The notes under the pieces: model-generated
What the model was told of the DNA's origin: nothing
Database searches by the model: none
Seen by the model: only the letters and a program-made list of their open reading frames with translations
Shown: positions 2,360-4,799 of the stretch, one piece after another
How positions within the stretch are numbered: position 1 is the stretch's first letter
How the letters are laid out: each line of letters begins with the position of its first letter
Position numbers and translations under genes: made by a program
DNA from: Polyangiaceae bacterium
GTDB lineage: Bacteria; Myxococcota_A; Polyangia; Polyangiales; Polyangiaceae
Direction of reading: 5' to 3'
NCBI GenBank assembly: GCA_020848455.1
Contig: JADLAB010000095.1
Coordinates: 1 to 45,134, forward strand
DNA: 45,134 nt

Positions 2360-3028
2360 ATGAAACACGCCCTCACGTGGAGGCTCCTCGGCCTGGCCGT
2401 CGCGTGCGGCTCGGCGGCGTGCGGCTCGCCGGTCGCGCCCGGCGGCGGTCCGAGCGCCGCGAGCCAGCCGAGCGCTCCGCTCGCGCCGCCGAGCGCGGCG
2501 TCGAGCGCTTCCGCGGGGCTGCCGAGCGCGGCGTCGAGCGCACCTCCGGGCGCCGGTCCGGAGGTGGATCCCTTCGGACCGCCGTCGACGGGCCTCCGCC
2601 CGTGCGCCGTGAAGGGCTACGTCGCACCCGCAGGGGCCAGGCTCGAGCTCGTGACCCGCGTGCGCGGCACGCGGCTCGCCGTCGGACTCCACAACGTGGG
2701 CACCGCCCCGGTGTGCGTCTACAGCCACGTCGCCACCCACGAGCTGCAGCACGACTGGCTCTCCGTCGGGTACGTCGACGGCACGAAGCCCGTGAACGTG
2801 CAGTTCACGGACTCGCGCGACAAGTCGGCCGCCGTGAGCGTCGAGATCGCGCCCGGCGCGACGAGCTGGGTGAGCTTCGACCTCGCCGCCTGGAAGGCTC
2901 GCCCCATCCACGGCGGCGGCGCGCTGCCGAAGGGCCGGCTCGAGCTCTCGGTCGCCTACGACACGACGCGCGAGACGTGGGTGTGGGCCGGGCGCCTGGC
3001 AGCGCAGACCGCGATGGACGTGCCCTAG
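2360..3028 (+). CDS. Lipoprotein with Ser/Ala/Pro-rich linker
   Basis: The 222-aa product begins MKHALTWRLLGLAVACGSAACGS, with possible lipoboxes ending at Cys16 or Cys21. A roughly 50-residue linker rich in Ser, Ala and Pro follows. The remaining ~150 residues look like a beta-sandwich domain (LELVTRVRGTRLAVGLHNVG, VCVYSHVATHELQHDW). I recognise no family. The TAG stop (3026-3028) lies inside the left arm of a 23-bp inverted repeat. The C-terminus of this gene has therefore been set by, or has fused with, the MITE-like element that follows, and the ancestral protein may have ended differently. Confidence 0.7.
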   Translation: MKHALTWRLLGLAVACGSAACGSPVAPGGGPSAASQPSAPLAPPSAASSASAGLPSAASSAPPGAGPEVDPFGPPSTGLRPCAVKGYVAPAGARLELVTRVRGTRLAVGLHNVGTAPVCVYSHVATHELQHDWLSVGYVDGTKPVNVQFTDSRDKSAAVSVEIAPGATSWVSFDLAAWKARPIHGGGALPKGRLELSVAYDTTRETWVWAGRLAAQTAMDVP

Positions 3029-3206
3029 AGCACCGAACAGGTTGAAACCTGCTGCAATCCGCGATCTTGCGCGATCTTCGCGCCGTACTCCCTCCGGGCT
3101 CCTCGACGTAGCAGCAGTACGCCTGCGTCGCCCTCCAGTCCGTGCGAGGCAAACCTCACGCCACCTCGCGGATTTCGCGACGTTTTCAACCTGTTCGGTG
3201 CTCTAG
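3025..3206. mobile_element. 182-bp MITE-like element with 23-bp perfect terminal inverted repeats
   Basis: The left end (3025-3047) and right end (3184-3206) are exact reverse complements over 23 bp, reading CTAGAGCACCGAACAGGTTG from the outside. The outermost bases, CTAG or TA, are palindromic. The true element may therefore be GAGCACCG...CGGTGCTC flanked by a TA or CTAG target duplication, as made by IS630/Tc1 or IS5-type transposases. Further in, AATCCGCGA occurs in both arms at slightly shifted positions, giving an imperfect longer palindrome. There is no transposase ORF, so mobilisation would need a transposase supplied in trans. The element could also act as a bidirectional hairpin terminator for the upstream lipoprotein. 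Confidence 0.65.
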
Positions 3207-3293: not shown

Positions 3294-3746
3294 ATGAAAC
3301 TGATGCGCCGACTCACGGGGACCACGGCGCTGCAGCAGGATCTCGCGCTCCTCGCCATCCGCCTCTGGTTCGGGCTGATGCTGGCCTTCGGCCACGGCCT
3401 GCCGAAGACGATGGATCTCGCCGGCTTCCTCGAGACGGTGCGCGAGCATCCGATCGCGATGCCGGAGCTCGCCGCGCCCGCTGCGGCGCTCACCGAGCTC
3501 GTCGGCGGCGTGCTCCTCGCGCTCGGGCTCGTGGCGCGCGTCGCCGCCGTTCCGGTGCTGGCCACGATGCTGACGGCCGCCTTCGTCGTCCACCGCGCCG
3601 ACCCCTTCGTCGGCGTGAAGGAGCTCGCCCTCACGTACGCCCTCGCGGCGCTCGTCATCCTCGTCGCCGGCGCGGGCCGCTTCAGCCTCGACCGGCTGAT
3701 CTTCGGGCGCGGCGCGGCCGCCGAGCGCGACAAGCCGCTGCCCTGA
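3294..3746 (+). CDS. DoxX family membrane protein
   Basis: The 150-aa protein has the layout of the DoxX/DoxD-like family, with four predicted membrane helices: LLAIRLWFGLMLAFGHG (about 21-37), ALTELVGGVLLALGL (about 63-80), AAVPVLATMLTAAFVV and LALTYALAALVILVAG. The conserved early RLWFG...HG-P-K segment is present. DoxX relatives work in thiosulfate:quinone reduction or as membrane partners in redox stress, but most are uncharacterised, so no reaction is assigned. The ATG at 3294 is chosen because it opens with MKLMRRL just before the first helix. An upstream in-frame GTG would add a long non-hydrophobic tail overlapping the repeat. It converges on the minus-strand peptidase gene. Confidence 0.75.
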   Translation: MKLMRRLTGTTALQQDLALLAIRLWFGLMLAFGHGLPKTMDLAGFLETVREHPIAMPELAAPAAALTELVGGVLLALGLVARVAAVPVLATMLTAAFVVHRADPFVGVKELALTYALAALVILVAGAGRFSLDRLIFGRGAAAERDKPLP

Positions 3747-3822: not shown

Positions 3823-4701
3823 CTAGCGGGGCTTCGGGCCGGCGGTCCGCGCGCGGCGCGTGGGGCCCGGGACATGGGCCGGCCCGTCGCCCTGGCGGGT
3901 CGACCGCGGCGCCGGCGCCACCTGCCTCGGGACGGCGCGCGGTCTCGCTCCCCGCGCCACCGGCGAGGGCTCGGGCTTGGTCGAGTAGTCGACGCACTGG
4001 GCCTGCCCGCGCGGGCAGGCGATGCGCACGTGGAAGTGGTTGTCGTGCGGTGTCGCGTGCCGCGGCTGGAGCAGGGCGCTCGCGGCGCGCGCCTGCAGGC
4101 TCGCCGAGACGCCGGAGCGGGCCGCGTAGGCGAGCAGGCGGGTGCGCAGGTGGTCGACGACGAAGATCTGCAGCACGCGCGCCTCGGCGTCGCTCAGCCA
4201 CGCCTCGACGAGGGCCCAGTTGCGCGCGGCGTCGAACTCGACCCCGGGCATGCGGAGCGCGCGCCCGTCGGGGTCGATCGTGGCGAAGCGCGGCGCCACG
4301 AACGCCTTGCCGCGGCGCTCGAGGTAGAAGGCGACGTCCGCGTCCCGGCCGCTCTCGTGCGAGTTGTGGCCGCCGACCTCGCCGCCGCCGCGGCGCGACA
4401 GGTCCCCGACCGTCAGAACCGACTTGGGGTAGCGCCGGGCGACGCGTGCGGCGCCGCGGTCGAGCATGCCCACCAGCTCGGGCAGGCCCCACCGGGCCGC
4501 ACCGACCACGCGCAGGTGGGCCGTGTGCTCGAGGCGCCGGCCCCCGACGAGGATCCCGTGGTTGGGCGAGCCGACGCTGACGCTCGGGGGCTCCGCCGGT
4601 GGGCGCTTGGCGGCCTTCGGGTGGGCGCCCTCGGCCTCCGCCGCCGCGAGCGACAGGGCGGCGGCGCACAGCCAGCGAAGAGCGGTCGGGACACGCAGCA
4701 T
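3823..4701 (-). CDS. MepA-like penicillin-insensitive murein endopeptidase (LAS family)
   Basis: This 292-aa secreted protein has a signal peptide (MLRVPTALRWLCAAALSLAAAEA). The zinc-site motif GGHNSHESGRDADV carries His112, His115 and Asp120. A late DNHFHVRI segment gives the His-x-His of LAS metallopeptidases. In this family the Zn2+-bound enzyme cuts the D-Ala-mDAP bond in peptidoglycan cross-links, in the periplasm. A Pro/Arg-rich tail of about 55 residues after the catalytic domain (ending ARTAGPKPR) is not part of the usual enzyme and may bind anionic envelope polymers. Start: the ATG at 4701 is preferred over an in-frame GTG at 4710. It is divergent from the E1 fusion gene. Confidence 0.8.
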   Translation of the reverse strand: MLRVPTALRWLCAAALSLAAAEAEGAHPKAAKRPPAEPPSVSVGSPNHGILVGGRRLEHTAHLRVVGAARWGLPELVGMLDRGAARVARRYPKSVLTVGDLSRRGGGEVGGHNSHESGRDADVAFYLERRGKAFVAPRFATIDPDGRALRMPGVEFDAARNWALVEAWLSDAEARVLQIFVVDHLRTRLLAYAARSGVSASLQARAASALLQPRHATPHDNHFHVRIACPRGQAQCVDYSTKPEPSPVARGARPRAVPRQVAPAPRSTRQGDGPAHVPGPTRRARTAGPKPR

Positions 4702-4799
4702 CGGAGCCACCCTAGGCGGCAGCGGCCCGACTGGCCAACCTCTCGGCCGCCGGATTGCTGCCGGCGTCGAGGGGTGGGAGAGTCGGCGCGGAGGTTCGC

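Follow-up and report, generated by a model that had tools for sequence, protein, structure and literature searches.

Bacterial MITEs of the Correia/NEMIS, RUP and ERIC types are foldback elements of 100-200 bp, which are chiefly intergenic and occur with shorter derivatives; they use TA targets, and their ends and partners differ from those of the CTAG MITE described here. According to the available part of its report (PMC3189936), MITEPsy1, a 100-nt element of Pseudomonas syringae, has CTAG or YTAA as its insertion site and duplicates 4 nt there; it resembles our element in being small, non-coding and bounded by inverted repeats with a CTAG target duplication, but it is attributed to ISPsy2, has other end sequences and is presented there without a stop-codon association. 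The second point of comparison is the IS1182 family (NF033551), with members such as ISPsy36, which carries 4-bp GGCC target repeats (PMC8027508), and IS1272 (PMC5678879). The terminal repeats of the MITE are those of complete IS1182-type elements of related myxobacteria and its target is likewise a 4-bp palindrome; unlike these insertion sequences, however, it has no transposase, its target is CTAG rather than the GGCC of ISPsy36, and at a clean empty site it shows no stem-loop replacement of the kind described for IS1272. Neither CTAG-targeting MITEs (MITEPsy1) nor palindromic targets of IS1182 elements are new, and no paper on MITEs of such kind in myxobacteria, or joining IS1182 with a CTAG target, was found among the open-access papers searched. 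The part deserving specialist attention is the distribution of the copies at stop codons.

The window (the whole analysed stretch of 45,134 nucleotides from a Polyangiaceae bacterium, a soil myxobacterium) contains the element between two genes of the same orientation. The following features were distinguished:

2360..3028, + strand: putative lipoprotein gene, 222 aa
3026..3028, + strand: TAG stop codon of the lipoprotein gene, within the left terminal CTAG
3025..3206, no strand: MITE including the CTAG at each end, 182 bp
3025..3047, + strand: left terminal inverted repeat CTAGAGCACCGAACAGGTTGAAA
3048..3183, no strand: non-coding interior
3184..3206, - strand: right terminal inverted repeat, identical to the left arm when read on the opposite strand
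3294..3746, + strand: downstream gene of a DoxX-family membrane protein (PF07681, E 7e-17)

The length is 178 bp if one CTAG is taken as duplicated target. As the preliminary description had it, the 23-nt arms are 100% complementary; they lie 136 nt apart, and no transposase-like ORF was found between them among the ORFs of the window. The window has two occurrences of the 17-mer core of the arms, where shuffles lead one to expect 0.07. Aligned with its own reverse complement, the whole element matches at 69% in local alignment and at 80 of 182 positions without gaps, and its single strand folds strongly (-91.7 kcal/mol, z -8.8 versus shuffles), as its inverted ends require. The consensus of 162 arms is CTAGAGC[AG]CCGA[AT]C[AG]GGTTGAA, and the bases beyond the CTAG show no marked preference. 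The lipoprotein has no Pfam family, and its orthologue in G001, a sister species of the same genus, is 85% identical; the DoxX orthologue (93% identical) adjoins the empty site there. Downstream of the DoxX gene lies a gene of a penicillin-insensitive murein endopeptidase (Peptidase_M74; window 3823-4710, - strand).

The search for further copies that had been proposed for this genome (9.2 Mb in 742 contigs, 96.5% complete) revealed about 19 altogether. Five full-length copies are 96-100% identical, and a sixth (C632:15958-16139) is 81% identical; the latter, which appears to be sited between divergent genes, is an old insertion, since it is also present in G001. Three short copies of 50-59 bp (C3:6798-6853, C373:29964-30022 and C493:2652-2701) consist of only the two element ends, joined by differing internal deletions, and about ten remnants retain a single recognisable arm. 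The same ends were found in 14 of 58 relatives, on elements of 50-275 bp, whose interiors and lengths are mostly genome-specific (149, 160, 161, 168 bp and others). Among GTDB contigs, 59 stretches carry them, also on 50-275-bp elements; nearly all are labelled Myxococcales, Polyangiaceae, Byssovorax or Sorangium and come from MAGs, and the finished genome of Sorangium cellulosum So0157-2 is also among them. Other interiors enclosed by these ends, in So0157-2 (L142) and at L111, include for example a CT-rich tract and a long inner near-palindrome. Searches of viral contigs and plasmids yielded no copies.

Empty sites were read from the G001 genome. The C127b site has its two flanks unbroken, with exactly one CTAG between them, where two flank the element in its own genome; at C326, C493, C159, C127a and C478, G001 has CTAG at one element border. 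At C119, C3 and C629 it has GTAG, i.e., a TAG stop preceded by G, and at C373 and C96 (the window copy) TGA, so that the exact ancestral target is not recoverable from G001 at these three and two sites. One site thus shows insertion at CTAG with duplication cleanly and five others agree with it, which bears out the target duplication proposed initially as TA or CTAG. For the window copy, the palindromic site alone cannot tell a TA from a CTAG duplication. Among the 162 arms, the outer base is not C in eight and the inner G differs in one, a pattern favouring duplication of TA over 4 bp, with the caveats that many of the inner Gs are fixed by stop codons and that the target repeats of ISPsy36, of the IS1182 family, are 4 bp long (GGCC; PMC8027508). 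Unequal end pairs (GTAG/CTAG and CTAG/CTAA) occur at L149 and L153.

Insertion sequences with the same ends, sought as possible partners, were found in relatives but not in the genome carrying the window. In one relative (G051), a 609-bp element with these ends codes a truncated N-terminal transposase part (DUF772) of the same subfamily as that of L194, and searching with this part retrieved complete insertion sequences of 1730-1786 bp in six relatives (L193/L207, L194, L195, L197, L199 and L215), in each of which both ends are versions of the MITE repeat, CTAG included. The L194 transposase (539 aa) matches NF033551, the IS1182 equivalog, with 280.6 bits (cut-off 270) and contains the Pfam domains PF05598 (DUF772), PF13751 (DDE_Tnp_1_6) and PF01609 (DDE_Tnp_1). 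The transposases found between these ends belong to a single subfamily, with 47-88% identity to the L194 enzyme; IS1182-like fragments without the ends, including that of C8 in the own genome, show no match to it. The C8 fragment (C8:23234-23404; 57 aa) belongs to a different IS1182-type transposase and lacks CTAG ends. Because the MITE ends match those of complete IS1182-family elements in relatives, mobilisation is probably due to a transposase of the IS1182 type. Neither a full IS1182 copy with these ends nor a DUF772 protein was found in the own genome, an absence that is weak evidence in an assembly of 742 contigs; the partner is missing from the assembly, or lost.

The reading that we hold with high confidence is that this is a non-autonomous MITE, moved in trans into CTAG by an IS1182-family transposase, with C-TAG stops rebuilt on insertion, so that copies accumulate at gene ends. 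Its classification as MITE-like is upheld by the near-identical dispersed copies, the empty sites in the sister species and the insertion sequences with the same ends. A different mode of insertion, for which IS1272 of the same family offers a precedent (PMC5678879), is replacement of a stem-loop: a hairpin over the old stop would have been replaced and the terminal CTAG of the element would be the new stop. The G001 site GCCCTGACCCGCAGGGC indeed forms a 6-bp hairpin across the TGA stop, and on this ground the mechanism was favoured for a time; it was dropped as a general one on the CTAG empty site at C127b, whose flanks are intact, and CTAG also borders several other empty sites, so we consider it unlikely. 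The variable outer base and nearly fixed inner G of the arms, together with the unequal end pairs, are what TA duplication inside a CTAG target by a Tc1/mariner-IS630 type element would predict. Membership of that family is nevertheless very unlikely and largely refuted, as no DDE_3 (PF13358) transposase was found in the own genome and the insertion sequences bearing these ends are IS1182-type; an enzyme of the latter type could itself duplicate 2 bp.

A transcription terminator acting in both directions, or an RNA element, in either case fixed and immobile, would suit the very stable fold and the frequent position at gene ends. The preliminary description had named, as signs of such a terminator, a lack of other copies and conservation of the repeat at this locus; instead, near-identical copies are dispersed in the genome and the element is absent from the orthologous G001 locus, which refutes a terminator as sole explanation, and neither a terminator-like T tract at the element nor an Rfam match was found, leaving this account highly improbable. 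Short palindromic copies and solitary arms also recall REP singlets and doublets, as expected of a REPIN/REP element that depends on a RAYT (Y1/HUH) transposase. However, no Y1_Tnp (PF01797) was found in the own genome and the ends are common to DDE-type IS1182 elements, so that, unless the assembly happens to lack an existing RAYT, this origin is refuted, and we give it hardly any credence.

The left arm does contain the lipoprotein's stop codon, TAG, where the ORF 2360-3028 ends, but the suggestion that the insertion may have set the C-terminus of the protein is not borne out by the relative without the element: the G001 lipoprotein ends at the same residue (...MDVP), with TGA as stop, and the insertion therefore did not alter the C-terminus. 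At the ten stop-supplying copies with a G001 alignment, read by eye, the stop stands at the same codon position in the sister gene; an exception occurs at C119, where the reading frame of a second, convergent gene is shorter by a few residues in G001. The full copy at that locus (C119:36720-36901) gives a TAG stop to both convergent genes.

Altogether, 15 of the 19 own-genome copies have one end as the TAG stop of a gene; 14 were called by a log-odds model of codon usage, for which long ORFs served as training set, and one, at C508, by eye. Outside the elements, CTAG occurs 83 times in 440 kb of this genome, about once per 5 kb, and 23 of these ordinary sites (28%) are stop codons by the codon model. 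The copies thus exceed ordinary CTAG sites (15/19 vs. 23/83, p about 1e-4) and non-coding ones (14/19 vs. 23/66, p 0.004), as do complete elements of other genomes (18/35 vs. 17/123 CTAG sites, p about 1e-5; p 6e-5 against non-coding sites), all these p values being optimistic because copies may be non-independent. By the same test none of seven complete insertion sequences is at a stop codon, a number too small to judge by, and on this ground the niche may come from retention of the MITEs and not from a choice made by the transposase. A retention bias for stop-supplying arms is also suggested by one-armed copies, in which they make up 8 of 10 here and 6 of 13 elsewhere, the latter not significant (p 0.18).

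Under the IS1182-driven mechanism, a DDE transposase of this family would recognise the ends of about 22 bp and mobilise the MITE in trans into the rare tetranucleotide CTAG, of which the whole or the central TA would be duplicated. Since the target contains TAG and stands on both sides after insertion, a C-TAG stop would be restored and the protein left unaltered. Insertions would subsequently be filtered, those in genes being lost and those on stops being cheap, and such tolerance would let copies accumulate at gene ends. Opinion is evenly balanced on the further proposal that insertion into C-TAG is self-repairing, with selection keeping the stop-supplying arms and decayed copies lasting as ready-made TAG stops. 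Nothing points to a host function; the hairpin may act as a terminator or mRNA end, but it has no T tract.

Such arms should not be taken for evolved terminators or as proof of truncated proteins. As CTAG is rare and 28% of its sites are stops, an element specific for it would find near-harmless landing sites, and in this way a tetranucleotide scarce in a GC-rich genome can be of use to a transposon. This would give a simple account of small elements placed exactly at gene ends.
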